Positions 3,364 to 21,011 of a stretch of DNA of 22,286 nucleotides are shown here, piece after piece. Under the pieces are notes generated by a model. That model did not search any database, was not told the origin of the DNA, and saw only the letters and a list, made by a program, of their open reading frames with translations. Position 1 is the stretch's first letter, and the number at the start of each line of letters is the position of its first letter. The position numbers and the translations under genes are program-made. The stretch comes from a virus, in the IMG/VR virus record IMGVR_UViG_3300045010_000113, positions 1 to 22,286 of that record, one strand, 5' to 3'.

Positions 3364-4806
3364 ATGCCGTTCGGAATCTCAGACAACGCCCCGGGCTGCA
3401 GCGGATGGGCGGCAGTCATGCGAGAGGATGATGGCAGTCTCGATGTGATCGGATGCCACGATACGAAGGATGAGGCAATCGCACAGATGGTCGCCGCCTC
3501 GATTGCGAAGGGAATCGAACCTCTAGGGGAGATTTCTTGGACTGAACCGAGAGTTGAGGAGCGAGAGGAGCCGGATCTCTCACCGCCCTCGTTCATGCGA
3601 GCATCAGCAGAGAGGGGGCTGCGGCTCCACGAGGACGGCAAATCCGGCTCCGGGCTGATGCCTCAGACCGTTGAGGATGCCCGTAAGATGGCGGCTGGGC
3701 AGGTTTCAGAGCAGAAATGGCGCAAGATAGGGCCTTGGATTGCCAGGCACATCGTTGATCTGGCGGCTGTGGATGAGCCCGGAGAGATAACGCCGGGGCT
3801 GGTCGCCATGCTGCTGTGGGGCGGAGGCTCCAGCAGATCGAGCGCAGAGAGGGCGCAGGCCTATGCCGAGCGCATAGTAGAGAGGCTCGATGCAAGAGCA
3901 CTACACTCGTCGGCTGAGATGAGCATCGTTGCGACTGAACCCCGGGCCTCCATCGAGGATCTCTCAGTTGGCACGTTCGTCAAATGGGATTCTGCTGGAG
4001 GAGAAGCATACGGGCGGATCGAGAAGGTGCAGACCAGCGGCTCGGTCTCCGCCTCCCCGGGCGATTTCACGATGCAGGGCTCCGAGGATGAGCCCGCCTA
4101 TCTCATCCGAGTTTACGGGGCCGAGGAGGAGGATGGTGAGACTGAGTATAAACCTACCGACACGCTCGTGGTCCACAGGGCTGAAGCCCTGACGGTGACT
4201 GCCAAGCGCAGCATCCGGGCTCACCGCTGGGTTTCCAAGCAGGTAGATGAGCGTCGCACCGTCGCCTACTCAACGATGGAGATGCGCCGAGAGGCAGGCA
4301 ACCGCCTCGTTGGATACGCAGCAGTATTTGACTCGCCTTCGGAGCCGATGCCGTTCATCGAGTATGTTCGGCGTGGCGCATTCACCAAGACCCTCAAAGA
4401 TGGGGCGGATGTGAGGCTCCTCGTAGATCACGAGGGGGTTCCTCTGGCTCGCACCAAATCCGGTACCCTCAGACTGTCCGAGGATCAGCGAGGCCTCCTT
4501 GTTGAGGCAGAACTCGATCCCAAGAACCCGGATGCCCAGCGAGTCCTCTCCGCAATGACCCGAGGAGACCTCTCACAAATGTCGTTTGCGTTCCGCACCG
4601 TCAAAGACTCGTGGAACAAGGAGATGAGCATCCGGGAACTGACGGAGGTGCAACTCTTCGATGTGTCGGTAGTGACCTTCCCCGCCTACGAGGAGACCTC
4701 CGCAGAGTTGCGAACTGCACAAACCTTTGGTACGCTCCCTAGTGTCGCTCCGGCGTTGAGGAAAGCACAACTCAGAATCGCCAGAGCGAAACGGCAGCCG
4801 CAATAG
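3364..4806 (+). CDS. Multi-domain prohead protease (HK97 type, N-terminal extensions)
   Basis: This is probably the maturation protease that cleaves the capsid protein and itself inside the prohead. The 480-residue chain has four parts. Residues 1-52 hold a GWAAVM...GCHDTKDEAIAQ module. Residues 80-178 form a helical module (RGLRLHEDGKSGSG, KIGPWIARH). Residues 200-278 form a beta-rich, Tudor-like module (VGTFVKWDSAGGEAYGRIE, ending DTLVVHRA). Residues 295-450 form the serine protease, with GYAAVFDS, the probable catalytic His 356 in LLVDHEG, and the probable catalytic Ser 407 in DLSQMSFAF. Ordinary prohead proteases are about half this length. The start is three bases after the portal stop. 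The protease call is firm; the roles of the three front modules are not known to me. Confidence 0.88.
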   Translation: MPFGISDNAPGCSGWAAVMREDDGSLDVIGCHDTKDEAIAQMVAASIAKGIEPLGEISWTEPRVEEREEPDLSPPSFMRASAERGLRLHEDGKSGSGLMPQTVEDARKMAAGQVSEQKWRKIGPWIARHIVDLAAVDEPGEITPGLVAMLLWGGGSSRSSAERAQAYAERIVERLDARALHSSAEMSIVATEPRASIEDLSVGTFVKWDSAGGEAYGRIEKVQTSGSVSASPGDFTMQGSEDEPAYLIRVYGAEEEDGETEYKPTDTLVVHRAEALTVTAKRSIRAHRWVSKQVDERRTVAYSTMEMRREAGNRLVGYAAVFDSPSEPMPFIEYVRRGAFTKTLKDGADVRLLVDHEGVPLARTKSGTLRLSEDQRGLLVEAELDPKNPDAQRVLSAMTRGDLSQMSFAFRTVKDSWNKEMSIRELTEVQLFDVSVVTFPAYEETSAELRTAQTFGTLPSVAPALRKAQLRIARAKRQPQ

Positions 4807-4875
4807 AGCCGATCCGATGAGGGTCACTCGCAGAAGCACTCCGAGACATTCAGAGACGACAGAAACGGAGCAACC

Positions 4876-6177
4876 GTGAAGCACTCAGCCACCCTCATCG
4901 AGAAGCGCGACGCGCTGATCACCGCAAGCGAGAACATCGTGAACGAGGCGCAAGCCGCAGGCCGCGACATCAACTCCGAGGAGGATGGAGAAATCGCAGC
5001 CAACCTCGACCTGATCCGCTCGCTGGATGAGCAGATCGCTCGCTACAGCGAACTCGAAGAGCGGCAGGCGAAGGCTGCGGAGATCCGAGCCGAAGTAAGA
5101 CTACAGGAGACCGATGTGACCACCATCAAGTCAGAGCCACGCACCTACAGCCTGGAGAGCAGCAACTCGTTCCTCCGCGATGCGTTCGCCGCACAGTTCA
5201 ACAACGATTACGCCGCCCGGGAGCGACTCGCCCGACACATGAACGAGGAGCGCATCGAGCGTCGCGATGTGACCTCCGCGAACTTCGCAGGTTTGGTGGT
5301 TCCGCAGTTCCTGACCGAACTTGCCGCACCGCTGGCACGAGCAGGCCGCCCCGTCGCGGATCGCGCCCGCAAGCACGCCCTCCCCGATGCAGGCCTGACC
5401 ATCTCGATCTCGAAGGTCACCACCGGAACCGCAGTAGCGGAGCAGACCGAAGGCGCAGCCGTCCAAGAGACGAACGCCGACGACACCAAACTAGACCTGA
5501 CGGTCAAGACCATCGCTGGTCAGCAGAACGTTTCGCGTCAGGCCATCGAGCGCGGCACGAACGTGGACTCGCTGGTCATCGCAGACCTCATCGCCGCCTA
5601 CCACACGAAACTCGACGAACTGCTCGTGGCGGAACTGTTCGCCTCCGCAGGTCAGGCAGTCACCTACACCGACGACACGCCCACGGTGACGGAGTTGTAC
5701 CCCAAGTTGGCGGATGCGGTGCAGAGAGTACAGACAACGTTTTTCGCAGGCCCCAACTCGATCATCATGCATCCTCGCCGCCTAGCGTTCATCCTTGCGG
5801 CACTTGACGGTCAGAACCGCCCAATCGCGGTTCCGTCGCCTGTTGCTCTGAACCCTGTGGCAACGGGTGCAGGATCGGCGCAGTATGGCAACAGCGGCTA
5901 CAGCATCCTCGGCCTCCCGGTCATCACCGATGCGAACGTGGCGACCAACAAGGGTTCCGGAACGAATCAGGACACCATTTATGTCGGCAACCTGCAGGAA
6001 CTCCACCTGTGGGAGCAGGCTGGCGGCGATCCGATGCTGCTCCGCTTCGAGCAGCCGAAGGTTGCCGAACTCGATGTGACCCTAGTTGTCTACGGCTACT
6101 CGTGTTTCACAGCGAACCGCTACCCGAACGCATGGGCGCAGATCAACGGCACTGGTTTGGTCCCACCGACCTTCTAA
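4876..6177 (+). CDS. Major capsid protein, HK97 fold
   Basis: This is probably the main shell protein. The 433-residue chain begins with a charged helical region (about 1-95, with EKRDALI, EEDGEIAANLDLI and ELEERQAKAAE). It matches the delta or scaffold domain that HK97-type phages carry in place of a separate scaffolding protein and remove during maturation. The HK97 core follows, with LVVPQFLTELAAPLARAGRPVADRA, a conserved MHPRR segment, NSGYSILGLPVITDANV and a C-terminal strand LDVTLVVYGYSCFTANRYPNA. The GTG start is supported by an ACGGAG site ending five bases upstream. The neighbours are the protease and the connector genes, which settles the role. Confidence 0.93.
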   Translation: MKHSATLIEKRDALITASENIVNEAQAAGRDINSEEDGEIAANLDLIRSLDEQIARYSELEERQAKAAEIRAEVRLQETDVTTIKSEPRTYSLESSNSFLRDAFAAQFNNDYAARERLARHMNEERIERRDVTSANFAGLVVPQFLTELAAPLARAGRPVADRARKHALPDAGLTISISKVTTGTAVAEQTEGAAVQETNADDTKLDLTVKTIAGQQNVSRQAIERGTNVDSLVIADLIAAYHTKLDELLVAELFASAGQAVTYTDDTPTVTELYPKLADAVQRVQTTFFAGPNSIIMHPRRLAFILAALDGQNRPIAVPSPVALNPVATGAGSAQYGNSGYSILGLPVITDANVATNKGSGTNQDTIYVGNLQELHLWEQAGGDPMLLRFEQPKVAELDVTLVVYGYSCFTANRYPNAWAQINGTGLVPPTF

Positions 6178-16996: not shown

Positions 16997-17298
16997 GCGG
17001 CCTGCAGATAGTCATTGTTGAGTGGGATGATGCCCACTCTGATCCCGGCTCATGGATCACCCATAGGGAGATCGAGCAGGACTCCTGCCGAGTCCGCACC
17101 GTTGGGCTGCTGATCTCATCAGCGAAACCTGATCATGTTGTTGTGGCACAGTCGGTCCACAGCCTCGGGGAGGATGACTCTGAGCCGCACTACGACTCGA
17201 TGATCTGCATCCCTGTAGGCATGGTGAGGAGTATGAGAGTAGTATCACAGTCGGGTGCAGCCCCCCTGTTCCGCTGCGCTCCCTCGGGGCAGGAGTGA
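16990..17298 (+). CDS. Conserved-looking small protein at the end of the late operon
   Basis: This is a 102-residue protein with a compact alternating pattern: LQIVIVEWDDAHSDPGSWIT, CRVRTVGLLISSAKPDHVVV, then AQSVHSLGEDDSE and MICIPVGMVRSMRVV. Short phage proteins with this W-DAH...TVG-L...IP-G-V layout are frequent near the end of structural regions, and they have no assigned function. ATG 16990 overlaps the phosphoesterase stop, and the AAGGAG at 16982-16987 would serve either this ATG or, with better spacing, GTG 16993. The stop codon lies inside the hairpin that marks the convergent junction. I do not recognise a function. Confidence 0.62.
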   Translation: MVSGLQIVIVEWDDAHSDPGSWITHREIEQDSCRVRTVGLLISSAKPDHVVVAQSVHSLGEDDSEPHYDSMICIPVGMVRSMRVVSQSGAAPLFRCAPSGQE

Positions 17299-17335
17299 GT
17301 TCCCTCCCTTCCCTCCCCTGCCCCGAGTGGGGGGG
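17283..17335. terminator. Convergent-junction hairpin with G-quadruplex motif
   Basis: CTCGGGGCAGG (17283-17293) and CCTGCCCCGAG (17317-17327) pair perfectly over 11 bp. The loop (17294-17316) carries the rightward stop codon and part of a pyrimidine tract. Read on the minus strand, 17302-17318 is GGGG-A-GGG-AA-GGG-A-GGG, a textbook G-quadruplex motif with loops of 1, 2 and 1. A seven-G run follows on the plus strand (17329-17335), directly before the leftward stop codon. The position between two converging operons suggests a terminator or transcription block for one or both directions. There is no T run after the stem on either strand, so it is not a classic intrinsic terminator. Confidence 0.55.
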
Positions 17336-17581
17336 TCAGTCGCTCGGGAACGCCTCAGGGCAGAGCGAGCGCAGGATGGCGATGCTCTCGAATGTCTGAG
17401 AGATGCGCCTGCGCACATCGTTGAGATCGAACTCCATCAGGGCGACCTCATCATCATCAGCGATGCACATCACCGCCTCTATGTCGTGTGCAATGACCTC
17501 CTGCCGCTCCAGATAGTCGCTTAGAGCGGTGAGCAGGATGGTGACCTGCTCAGCGGTCAGCCTCGGCTGTTTGCGCCTCAT
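17336..17581 (-). CDS. Small acidic helical protein, last gene of leftward operon
   Basis: This is an 81-residue protein starting at the ATG at 17581, read leftward. It opens with a basic MRRKQPR, followed by a helix (LTAEQVTILLTALSDYLERQ). A run with DDDEVALMEFDLNDVRRRIS and a terminal helix with FESIAILRSLCP complete it. The start overlaps the stop of the upstream gene as ATGA, so it is probably translated by coupling; no good ribosome binding site of its own is visible. The stop abuts the seven-G run of the convergent junction. I do not recognise the family. Size, charge and place next to an HTH gene fit a small early regulator or host-takeover protein, but this is a guess. Confidence 0.6.
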   Translation of the reverse strand: MRRKQPRLTAEQVTILLTALSDYLERQEVIAHDIEAVMCIADDDEVALMEFDLNDVRRRISQTFESIAILRSLCPEAFPSD

Positions 17582-17931
17582 GCCTGCTCTCGTAGTCTGC
17601 GAACGATGCGCTGGAGTTTGCGGAACGCTGGGCAGTCGAGATCGGCAACGACGATGTTCTCCCATCGCTCCAGATAATCCGCAAACTGCTCCCAATCCAC
17701 TCGTTGGTCAGGATCCGGGCAGAGGTCATCCGTGAGTTCGGAGATGGCTGGGAGCATCTCCTCCGTCAGGTCTGCAGCCTCTCGGATGATGATGGGGGTG
17801 CGAGGTCTCCATCTCAGGGCTCCCTCTTGGGGAGACCTCTGCTGATGCTGTGCCTCCGCCTCCTCCTTCTTCCTCTGGGAGGTTGCGTTGATTGCTGCGA
17901 GAGCATCGGCTGGGATGTGCAGGTCGCTCAT
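17578..17931 (-). CDS. Unknown protein, middle gene of leftward operon
   Basis: This is a 117-residue protein. The N-terminal part (MSDLHIPADALAAINATSQR, then a KKEEAEAQHQQ run) looks helical and disordered. The second half (TPIIIREAADLTEEMLPAIS, then WEQFADYLERWENIVVADLD) is acidic with aromatic residues and ends in a basic helix (FRKLQRIVRRLREQA). I chose the ATG at 17931 because it overlaps the HTH gene's stop by one base (TGATG on the minus strand); an upstream in-frame start at 17955 would lie inside that gene. No known motif is present. It is probably co-translated with its neighbours, and its function is unknown. Confidence 0.62.
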   Translation of the reverse strand: MSDLHIPADALAAINATSQRKKEEAEAQHQQRSPQEGALRWRPRTPIIIREAADLTEEMLPAISELTDDLCPDPDQRVDWEQFADYLERWENIVVADLDCPAFRKLQRIVRRLREQA

Positions 17932-18308
17932 CAGAGGTCTGCCTCTCCTCGGCACTCATAGGAGCGGCCCTCGGATTTGCGGAACAGGCGAGGGTTCTCC
18001 TTGACGGTTTTGCGAGCGATGCCGAGCGAGACTCCTGCCATGTCTGCGAGTTCCCTGACGGTGACCATGACTGCGAAGTTCTCTCTAGCGAATCGGATGA
18101 TCGCCTCTCTGCCTGCATCCCGAACCCTACTCTGCCAGCCCTCGGAGATGCGAGCCCCTTTGAGGATCTCTCTGCGAGTCTCCAGTGGAACCATCCTGCG
18201 GATGCGCCCGGGGATGAACGCAATGTAGACCGGGCTGCCGTGCCGCTCCGTCACCTCTCGAAGCAGGGCCTCAGCCTGCTCGGGGGTAGTGATCTCCTTC
18301 GTATCCAT
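17931..18308 (-). CDS. HTH DNA-binding protein, first gene of leftward operon
   Basis: This 125-residue protein is the first leftward gene after the divergent control region. The C-terminal third, VTVRELADMAGVSLGIARKT followed by VKENPRLFRK, reads as a helix-turn-helix or winged-helix unit (about residues 82-111), where GVS marks the turn before the recognition helix. The front has a helix (EQAEALLREVTERHGS) and a strand-loop region (PVYIAFIPGRIRRMV). The start has a good GAGGGAG site about seven bases upstream on the minus strand. Its own promoter appears to be the leftward half of the 18347-18414 region, so it could control that region. The repressor or regulator role is inferred from motif and place. 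Confidence 0.7.
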   Translation of the reverse strand: MDTKEITTPEQAEALLREVTERHGSPVYIAFIPGRIRRMVPLETRREILKGARISEGWQSRVRDAGREAIIRFARENFAVMVTVRELADMAGVSLGIARKTVKENPRLFRKSEGRSYECRGEADL

Positions 18309-18347
18309 TCCATGTCTCCCTCTGTCTGAGCAGGCGGATGCCTGCTG

Positions 18348-18375
18348 CTAATAGAAGGATAGCAAACGAAGTCAA
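18348..18375 (-). promoter_or_regulatory. Leftward promoter (divergent pair)
   Basis: On the minus strand TTGACT (18375-18370) is followed after 16 bases by TATTAG (18353-18348). This is a plausible sigma-70-type -35 and -10 pair about 40 bases ahead of the HTH gene. The -35 box is part of the left arm of the inverted repeat described below. The -10 box has four of six consensus bases, so strength is uncertain. Confidence 0.5.
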
Positions 18376-18392
18376 ATCGGGGTCTTTGACTT
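18369..18392. promoter_or_regulatory. Palindromic operator candidate holding both -35 boxes
   Basis: AAGTCAAA (18369-18376) and TTTGACTT (18385-18392) are perfect 8-bp inverted copies separated by eight bases (TCGGGGTC). Each arm contains a TTGACT -35 box, one on each strand. Arm centres are 16 bases apart, less than two helix turns. A dimeric regulator bound here would cover both -35 boxes at once. The HTH gene next to it is the obvious candidate, but no binding is shown by sequence alone. Confidence 0.55.
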
Positions 18393-18414
18393 TGCGTCAT
18401 CCCCTCCCTATTCT
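18386..18414 (+). promoter_or_regulatory. Rightward early promoter
   Basis: TTGACT (18386-18391) and TATTCT (18409-18414) are separated by exactly 17 bases, the optimum for a sigma-70-type promoter. They match five of six and four of six consensus bases. Transcription would start near 18421, at the foot of a hairpin and about 35 bases ahead of the first early gene. No other convincing promoter is visible for the rightward early operon. Confidence 0.6.
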
Positions 18415-18419
18415 GGGGC

Positions 18420-18440
18420 CATCGGGCAGGATGCCCGATG
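18420..18440 (+). promoter_or_regulatory. Hairpin or operator at the start of the early transcript
   Basis: CATCGGGCA (18420-18428) and TGCCCGATG (18432-18440) form a perfect 9-bp inverted repeat with a three-base loop (GGA). It lies directly after the predicted -10 box, so it would form the very 5' end of the early message. As RNA it could protect the message from decay; as DNA it could be an operator that overlaps the start point. The first ribosome binding site (GGGAGG, 18447-18452) follows and stays free. Confidence 0.55.
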
Positions 18441-18456
18441 AGACATGGGAGGCTGT

Positions 18457-18633
18457 ATGAAGGTTTGTTATCGCATCCAAATCCGCAGAGGGGTTCGTCG
18501 CCATTGGGAGACTCGGTTCTCCTCTGATAATCACGCAGAGGCCCATCTCCTCTACGAGGGGATCAACATCGGCTACGGATGGCAGAAGAGGCTCACTCGA
18601 AACAACGAGGAAATCCGGCGTTCCGAGTCCTGA
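18457..18633 (+). CDS. Small protein, first gene of rightward early operon
   Basis: This is a 58-residue basic protein: MKVCYRIQIRRGVRRHWETR, then FSSDNHAEAHLLYEGINIGY and a basic end (GWQKRLTRNNEEIRRSES). The pattern suggests a strand, a loop, a helix (HAEAHLLYEGI) and another strand, a minimal alpha/beta fold. GGGAGG (18447-18452) sits four bases before ATG 18457; the ATG at 18445 overlaps that site and is rejected. It is the first gene behind the predicted early promoter and its hairpin leader, so it should be made early and in quantity. I do not recognise the family; position suggests a host-directed or regulatory early protein. Confidence 0.62.
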   Translation: MKVCYRIQIRRGVRRHWETRFSSDNHAEAHLLYEGINIGYGWQKRLTRNNEEIRRSES

Positions 18634-18693: not shown

Positions 18694-19659
18694 ATGCAGA
18701 CCGTTAGAAAGCCTGAGCATGGCTCCGAGGAGTGGCTCCGTTTGAGATGGAGAGACTCTCAGGGTCTCTGCGTGTTCGGCGCATCCGAGGCCGCCTCGCT
18801 GATGGGGCAGAGCCCCTATGTGAGCAGAGGCGACCTGTTCGCATCCAAACGCAGTCAGCCGATCATCTCCGAGCAGACTGAGGTGTTCCGCAGAGGTCAT
18901 GTTCTGGAGCCTGCGCTGCTCGCTGAGGCAGGGCGCATCCTTCGTGCAGAGGTGGTCACCCCGGATGTTATGTATGCCGAGGGGCGATGGATCGCGACCC
19001 TCGATGGGATTGTTGGCGCAGCCGAGCAGCCAGAGGTCATCGTTGAGGCCAAGACCACGACTCGCTACTCGGTGAGAGATGCCGATGATCTCCCTGCAGA
19101 GTGGCTTTGGCAGTCATGGGTTCAGGGCTCGCTCCTCGGAGCAGAGGTGTTCATTATGGCTCTGGATCGAGACCTCCGGCTCTCTTTGACTCAGGTTCCC
19201 AAGAACCCCGAGGCGTGGGATGCGTTGCTGCTGGAGGCTGAGCGGCTCGGTTGCGCCGTTGATGAGGGGAGCCCTCTCGCCCCGGATGAGTTCTCCTACG
19301 AACAAATCGTTGATCTGTGGAAGCCAACGCCTCGCATCGCAGAGTTGCCGAGCGAGGCAGGGCTGTGGCTCCACATCCTCGCTGATGCCAGAGACCTGAA
19401 GGGGCAGGCCGAGACTCAGGAGAAGCAGGCGAAGGATGCGCTCGCCCGAATGCTGCTGGATGCGGAGATCGGAGTGCTGGAGGGCCGTCAGGTCATCACA
19501 TGGAAAGAGCAGGCTGGGAGAGCCTCGCTCGATGAGTCTCGGTTGAGGCAGGATCATCCCGATCTCTGCGCCAACTATGAGAAACCCGGGAAGCCGTATC
19601 GCGTGATGCGGATCTCCTCGGGCAAGCCGATCAAGTCACGCAACAAGGAGCAGTCATGA
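18694..19659 (+). CDS. YqaJ-type recombination exonuclease
   Basis: This is probably the phage exonuclease that resects DNA ends for recombination, the partner of an annealing protein. It has 321 residues. It carries the YqaJ pattern: GSEEWLRLR at 10-18, GASEAASLMGQSPY at 29-42, and RRGHVLEPAL at 66-75 with the first acidic ligand. D104 follows in ATLDGIV, then the E-x-K pair E118/K120 in VEAKTTT, and glutamines near 140-144. These make up the PD-(D/E)XK nuclease core of lambda-exonuclease relatives. The C-terminal part is helical (DARDLKGQAETQEKQAKDAL). A strong AGGAGGG lies before the ATG. The stop overlaps the next start (ATGA), and that next gene is its likely partner. Confidence 0.88.
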   Translation: MQTVRKPEHGSEEWLRLRWRDSQGLCVFGASEAASLMGQSPYVSRGDLFASKRSQPIISEQTEVFRRGHVLEPALLAEAGRILRAEVVTPDVMYAEGRWIATLDGIVGAAEQPEVIVEAKTTTRYSVRDADDLPAEWLWQSWVQGSLLGAEVFIMALDRDLRLSLTQVPKNPEAWDALLLEAERLGCAVDEGSPLAPDEFSYEQIVDLWKPTPRIAELPSEAGLWLHILADARDLKGQAETQEKQAKDALARMLLDAEIGVLEGRQVITWKEQAGRASLDESRLRQDHPDLCANYEKPGKPYRVMRISSGKPIKSRNKEQS

Positions 19660-20312: not shown

Positions 20313-20716
20313 TGCAGGAGCAACTGTTCAGCCACTCCTTCGGGCTTGGCGGCCCATCCGAGAAGCCGAATCTGGAGTTGGTCAGAGAGCCCCGGGCTCT
20401 CGCCCGGAGTTCCGATCCGCAGACCTCGAAGGAGGCTGCGGCTGCAGCCGAGAGGAGGGCTCCATCGCAGCGAGACCGACTGCTCTCAGCCTACATGACT
20501 GCCGGAGATCGAGGTCTGACCGATGAGGAGGCAGGAGTCTCCGCAGGTCTCGCAGGGTCGGGTTATTGGAAGCGATGCTCCGATCTCAGGAGCCTCGGCC
20601 TCATCGTTCCGCTCGGTTCGCTCAGGCGGGTCTCCTCGGGGCTGATGGCGCAGGTTTGCGTGATAACGCTGGACGGATGGCGGCGCATGGATCAGTTGAG
20701 TCGGCGTGCCAGATAG
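20312..20716 (+). CDS. Winged-helix-like DNA-binding protein
   Basis: This is a 134-residue protein. After a disordered front, residues about 33-46 (SSDPQTSKEAAAAA) open a conserved block. A helical run (SQRDRLLSAYMTAGDRGLTD) and EEAGVSAGLAGSGYWKRCSD follow, then LRSLGLIVPLG. This is the sequence order of a winged-helix domain: a helix, an acidic turn, a recognition helix ending in an LR.LGLI strand, and a wing (RRVSSGLMAQVCVITLDG). Proteins with this DPxTSKEAA...GLTDEEA layout are common in early regions of actinophages. ATG 20312 overlaps the previous stop (TGATG). DNA binding is likely; whether it acts in replication or regulation is unknown. Confidence 0.7.
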   Translation: MQEQLFSHSFGLGGPSEKPNLELVREPRALARSSDPQTSKEAAAAAERRAPSQRDRLLSAYMTAGDRGLTDEEAGVSAGLAGSGYWKRCSDLRSLGLIVPLGSLRRVSSGLMAQVCVITLDGWRRMDQLSRRAR

Positions 20717-21011
20717 GGGCGATTGGCGAGAGAGAGCCGCCTGCCGAGGCAAACCCTCCGACCTGTTCTTCCCCCCGAAGCCGCTGCTTGCTACCAACTA
20801 TCGGATTGCGAGAGCAGTCTGCGAGAACTGCGAGGTCAGGGAGCAGTGCCTCGCCCTCGTGATGCGGCTCGATGCGATGGATGACCGATGGGGGATGTTC
20901 GGAGGTTTGACTCCATCGGAGAGAAGGAGGCTGCGCTCAGACCTCGCATGGAGGTACGCTCTAGGCGATGGAGCAGCAGGGCCGGAAGGGGCAGTGCGAG
21001 GGGAACCGTGA
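20706..21011 (+). CDS. WhiB-family iron-sulfur regulator
   Basis: This is probably a WhiB-like transcription factor that carries a [4Fe-4S] cluster and works with the host's primary sigma factor. The 101-residue chain has four cysteines in the family arrangement: C13 in RAACRG, C39 and C42 in VCENC, and C48 in REQCL. It also has DLFFP near 19-23, typical of WhiB, and the tail GGLTPSERRRLR. The usual G-V/I-W-G-G turn reads GMFGG here, with Phe replacing Trp. The gap between the first and second cysteine (25 residues) is longer than in many members. GTG 20706 overlaps the previous gene by 11 bases. The family is restricted to Actinomycetota and their phages, so it identifies the host phylum. 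Confidence 0.87.
   Translation: MPDRGDWRERAACRGKPSDLFFPPKPLLATNYRIARAVCENCEVREQCLALVMRLDAMDDRWGMFGGLTPSERRRLRSDLAWRYALGDGAAGPEGAVRGEP

Follow-up and report, generated by a model that had tools for sequence, protein, structure and literature searches.

Probable back-to-back -35 regions and divergent promoters in an uncultured phage

Genes and features of the intergenic stretch

The window analysed here is a stretch of viral DNA of 22,286 nucleotides (IMG/VR record IMGVR_UViG_3300045010_000113), in which a leftward and a rightward operon meet at the intergenic stretch 18309-18456. The first leftward gene (17931..18308, minus strand) encodes a 125-amino-acid protein with a predicted C-terminal winged helix, which we call the HTH protein. 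The second (17578..17931, minus strand) is joined to it by an ATGA overlap and the third (17336..17581, minus strand) completes the operon, the starts of both being placed by comparison with relatives. A homologue of the second gene also follows the HTH gene in the related genome G004 and in the distant record L020, where the HTH gene, its downstream partner and a 62-amino-acid gene stand together on one strand (3658-4884), so that the three appear to move as one unit, whether or not the palindrome described below goes with them. On the plus strand, the rightward operon opens with a small protein (MKVCYRIQIRRG...; 18457..18633), whose start at 18457 matches the relatives better than one at 18445, and goes on to encode a YqaJ/RecE-like recombination exonuclease (18694..19659; PF09588, 4.8e-8; phrog_434, 1.2e-40), a WhiB-like protein (20706..21011; PF02467, 1.1e-17) and a cytosine methyltransferase. 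The window also encodes a head-and-tail module, a lysin and a phosphoesterase-like exonuclease; the structural, lysin and methyltransferase names come from reading the translations. An 11-bp perfect inverted repeat (CTCGGGGCAGG / CCTGCCCCGAG, 23-nt gap; 17283-17327) lies where the leftward operon and the late rightward operon converge; it has no T-run and is possibly a two-way terminator. A search of the window against Rfam matched no family.

The intergenic stretch holds an inverted repeat, AAGTCAAA-N8-TTTGACTT (18369..18392, no strand assigned), with perfect 8-bp arms at 18369-18376 and 18385-18392, which we read as two back-to-back -35 regions. The palindrome and the four promoter hexamers assigned to it lie exactly where the original prediction had placed them. 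Taken by itself, an 8-bp inverted repeat is at chance level in the window: perfect 8-bp repeats with loops of 0-20 nt number 21, against 8-22 in ten dinucleotide shuffles, and those with AT-rich arms number 2, against 0-4 in shuffles. The whole pattern of palindrome and hexamers occurs once, and a search at up to three mismatches again gives one match in the window, where 0.02 would be expected by chance for a pattern that was picked after the sequence had been seen. The exact 20-mer also matches L013, in an unrelated coding context.

The HTH protein has no significant Pfam or PHROG match. A first AlphaFold model reached a pLDDT of only 51; a deeper alignment raised this to 84, and the resulting AlphaFold2 model, built with eight homologues, has a C-terminal winged helix. 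The best matches in a structure search were generic winged helices (Z about 7-9) among which no family stands out, so that a nucleic-acid-binding fold is likely and no function can be named from it.

The virus probably infects freshwater actinobacteria. The closest cellular relatives of its YqaJ exonuclease come from freshwater Acidimicrobiia assemblies (52-53%), which suggests that group as the host. Many such assemblies (genome contigs L091-L107) contain relatives of this kind, uniformly 51-53% identical to the phage protein; two of them, L092 and L105, are titled Bifidobacterium breve, in what looks like mislabelling. In L095 the YqaJ gene sits among ordinary chromosomal genes and may therefore be a cellular relative rather than part of a prophage. 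Among INPHARED phage records, the exonuclease was found in none at 1e-10 and an HTH homologue in one record only (33%). Neither the Phage_integrase nor the Resolvase family was found in the window or its relatives, including G002 (32.4 kb), which spans nearly the whole gene order; comparison with the window puts what is missing at an estimated <1 kb. This absence from a near-complete genome makes a lysogeny switch unlikely; we rejected that candidate on it, other lysogeny routes remaining, and the phage is probably one without a lysogeny module.

Conservation and the two promoters

Four distinct genomes carry a node of the window's type (type A), namely the window itself, G001, G002 and G003; these are close relatives and the only ones from which this type is known, and a contig nearly identical to G001 (3300021093) was not counted as a separate genome. 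Their alignment reveals AAGTCAAATCGGGGTCTTTGACT, a block of 23 consecutive nucleotides (18369-18391) that includes the asymmetric middle of the palindrome and is invariant in all four. The flanking columns are invariant at 68 of 112 positions (61%), a rate at which 23 invariant positions would arise with a probability of about 1e-5. In G003 the right arm lacks its outermost T (TTTGACTC). The repeat, whose conservation in close relatives had been set beforehand as a test capable of refuting the original prediction, is thus retained. It is this conserved block, and not the inverted repeat itself, that makes the palindrome more than chance, and by comparison of the four genomes we take it to be a genuine site of control, of a kind that is not unusual. 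An inverted repeat that arose between genes by accident would be in keeping with the number of such repeats, neither rarer nor commoner than in shuffles, but it is a highly improbable account of a block kept without change together with a TAnnnT at exactly 17 bp in four genomes; a simple chance origin was rejected on this conservation.

The asymmetric 8-nt middle, TCGGGGTC (18377-18384), is itself invariant in the four genomes, which at the flank rate would happen by chance with a probability of about 0.02, and it has no dyad symmetry. Two -35 boxes alone do not explain its invariance, so that a further protein might also bind there.

The rightward promoter is well supported by this alignment, as the original prediction had proposed it. 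Its -35 element, TTGACT (18386..18391, plus strand), is invariant in the relatives and always lies 17 bp from TAnnnT, the form expected of an actinobacterial -10. The -10 element, TATTCT in the window (18409..18414, plus strand), keeps only T1, A2 and T6 among the relatives: across the four genomes it reads TATTCT, TACTCT, TATCAT or TATGAT, each exactly 17 bp after TTGACT, while its three inner bases and most bases of the spacer vary.

Some leftward promoter must exist within the stretch to serve the leftward operon, and its position is less certain. The original prediction took the TTGACT of the left arm (within CGATTTGACTT; 18370..18375, minus strand), which is invariant, as the -35 and TATTAG (18348..18353, minus strand), 16 bases further on, as the -10. 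Both elements are present at that spacing, but TATTAG makes a weak -10: the site reads TAATAG in relatives, lacks T6 and stands just 2 nt short of the core of the leader hairpin. A second candidate, TGCTATCCT (18356..18364, minus strand), would be an extended -10 of the form TGnTAnnnT and is conserved as TGCTATSCT in all four genomes. The hairpin core begins 10 nt after TATSCT, against 8-9 nt in 12 other promoters of the family, so that its spacing is within 2 nt of the family value. Because it is conserved, carries T6 and fits the hairpin spacing, TGCTATSCT (18364-18356) is more likely than TATTAG to be the leftward -10. No TAnnnT occurs 15-19 bp from the left TTGACT, and the left arm, whose CGATTTG is common to other promoters of the family, stands just 8 bp from the favoured -10, so it may have no role as a -35.

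Each transcript would open with a short stem-loop, followed by a ribosome-binding site. Where the rightward transcript is expected to begin, a 9-bp stem closes a 3-nt loop (18420..18440, plus strand; z -3.1), and in the leftward leader a 7-bp stem closes a 4-nt loop (18329..18346, minus strand; z -3.6) and is kept in relatives. Folding z-scores of such leaders range from -2.2 to -3.6 in the phage group, with -1.6 for the more distant record L018. The stems differ from promoter to promoter (CGGGC, CGCCTCC, GAGGGGC, GCAGGC) and the pairing is retained, which is what an RNA structure, and not a protein site, would be expected to show. This suggests that the leader hairpins have a role in the RNA, for example in protecting the 5' end.

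Reuse of the promoter cassette in relatives

Comparison with relatives indicates that the elements of the node belong to a recurring cassette, in which CGATTTGMM-17-TAnnnT is followed by a hairpin and then by a GAGGGAG-type ribosome-binding site. An ungapped alignment of twelve family promoters reads TTTG[AC]...17...TAnnnT. A weight matrix built from ten sites scores the family at 32-48 bits, against a maximum of 11.4 elsewhere in five genomes and in shuffles; being trained on its own sites, it speaks for the distinctness of the cassette and not for independence. Searches of IMG/VR led back to the same group: a -10/leader pattern returned 51 stretches, the genuine ones among them all from the group already known, and an arm/-10/ribosome-binding-site pattern returned six, three from the known group and three by chance (two of these in tRNA-like sequence). 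No description of a CGATTTG-17-TAnnnT cassette was found in the open-licence literature.

A second divergent node with CGATTTG arms occurs in G002 (L040 10650-10790) and G003 (L042 270-470), and the node beside the HTH operon of G004 is of this same second type. In G002 and G003 the arms of the second node, CGATTTGCA / CGATTTGCC, lie 59-60 bp apart around a stretch of G/C runs, with genes beginning MRIGELIDRL... on the left and MATKATHEV... on the right; the TTGCA-type arms of the second node are poor matches to a -35. Exactly two divergent nodes are present in the almost complete genome G002. The gap between divergent TTTG elements is thus 8 bp at the window's node, 27 bp in G004, 60 bp in G002 and 59 bp in G003. 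The cassette is also found with a single arm: in G004 (L043 14573-14660) it follows a lysozyme-like gene, and no gene diverges from it; in L018 the sequence CGATTTGACA-17-TAGAGT and a hairpin precede an HTH homologue.

Promoter pair, operator or switch

The observations are best accommodated, with a probability that we put at about 0.62, by a divergent promoter node in which back-to-back -35 copies drive two operons whose transcripts begin with leader stem-loops, and in which the two promoters probably compete for polymerase. Two copies of the phage promoter -35 region, (CGA)TTTGAC, would create the palindrome simply because they stand back to back. The copy on the right, which has TATTCT 17 bp further along, would drive the recombination, WhiB and methyltransferase operon; the left side would drive the three-gene HTH operon, likelier through the extended -10 TGCTATSCT than through TATTAG. 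Competition for RNA polymerase would be probable because the promoter elements are so close. Of what was originally claimed, the divergent promoter region between the HTH and YqaJ operons proves to be conserved, and exclusion between polymerases is plausible at 8 bp; as a property of the family it does not hold, the other arms being 27-60 bp apart.

The proposal of one operator controlling both operons has fared worse. Arms of the same type stand at gaps of 8, 27 and 59-60 bp, which a single dimer of fixed geometry cannot read, and the promoters that have no divergent partner (L043 14573; L018) have one arm, which argues that the arm is an element of each promoter. The palindrome is therefore probably two promoter -35 regions placed back to back, and a fixed-geometry operator was rejected because arm spacing differs between nodes. 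The idea that the palindrome is an operator for a dimer of the neighbouring winged-helix protein, by which that protein would control its own operon and also repress the recombination operon, draws on the position of the candidate gene, on its predicted fold, on the invariance of both arms and the 8-nt middle, and on the chance that the leftward -10 does not need the left arm as a -35, which would free that arm as a protein site. We nevertheless consider it unlikely, since relatives have arms 27 and 59-60 bp apart or one arm alone, the 8-nt middle is not symmetric, HTH homologues in other phages (L018, L020 and L025) lie away from any such palindrome, and no family match of the protein points to a function. 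With those homologues elsewhere and the HTH operon of G004 at the other type of node, control by the HTH protein as a compact switch is possible and finds no support in the relatives.

A tentative alternative, to which we give somewhat less than even odds, is that the two sides differ in kind: the right arm alone would serve as a -35, and the leftward promoter would be of the extended -10 type, its spacer containing the left arm and offering a regulator or the rightward polymerase a place from which to block it. The conserved TGCTATSCT, the lack of a TAnnnT at the usual distance from the left TTGACT, and a hairpin spacing that suits TATSCT (10 nt) over TATTAG (2 nt) speak for this reading; against it, the left arm has the full CGATTTG signature, as in promoters where the arm is clearly at -35. 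More doubtful is a scheme in which two divergent nodes bearing the phage group's own cassette (CGATTTG-type -35, 17 bp, TAnnnT, stem-loop at +1, GAGGGAG) together precede every transcription unit, and in which the unusual TTGCA-type -35s are read with a phage factor, perhaps the WhiB-like protein working through sigma region 4, so that control over timing or stoichiometry would be built in; we regard this as a long shot.

The preferred reading, a node of two back-to-back promoters, has parallels in known systems. On plasmid pLS20 the overlapping divergent promoters Pc and Pr act with RcoLS20 as a switch, and it is argued there that, since polymerase can occupy only one of the two at a time, their overlap is a switch in itself; that work measured the start sites, the binding of the regulator and the looping of the DNA (PMC4207663). 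The phage node likewise has two divergent promoters in the intergenic region of a candidate regulator. Unlike pLS20, it is known from sequence alone, and the arms of its sister nodes are too far apart for such an overlap. As regards exclusion of the pLS20 type, the window offers arms 8 bp apart, a supported rightward promoter and a leftward promoter of uncertain position. Bidirectional promoters are common in E. coli, where a symmetric -10 is shared and start sites lie beside or inside it (PMC12825309); at the five that were tested, basal transcription was too low for polymerases to compete (PMC12825309), which calls for caution in assuming competition at the phage node. Both kinds of promoter have symmetric DNA able to engage polymerase in either direction, but the phage node is symmetric at the -35 and has a separate -10 for each direction, on opposite sides of the palindrome.

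Repressor and stoperator sites of mycobacteriophages can overlap TTGAC. In a general comparison, the node resembles the immunity repressor sites of those phages as a putative phage regulator site controlling early promoters. Stoperators are numerous and spread over the genome (PMC9283540), whereas the window has one node and the almost complete relative has two, and searches for an integrase or resolvase found neither. An L5-like stoperator array was rejected on the single copy in the window at up to three mismatches and the two nodes in the 32.4-kb relative.

In summary, the arrangement is already known in kind and the phage node is a further example, which overturns nothing known. Its value lies in a concrete, alignment-based promoter model, two nodes and one cassette, for a group of uncultured phages whose hosts are probably freshwater Acidimicrobiia, bacteria in which phage transcription is little known. 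Moreover, it illustrates that back-to-back promoters can imitate the palindrome of an operator.
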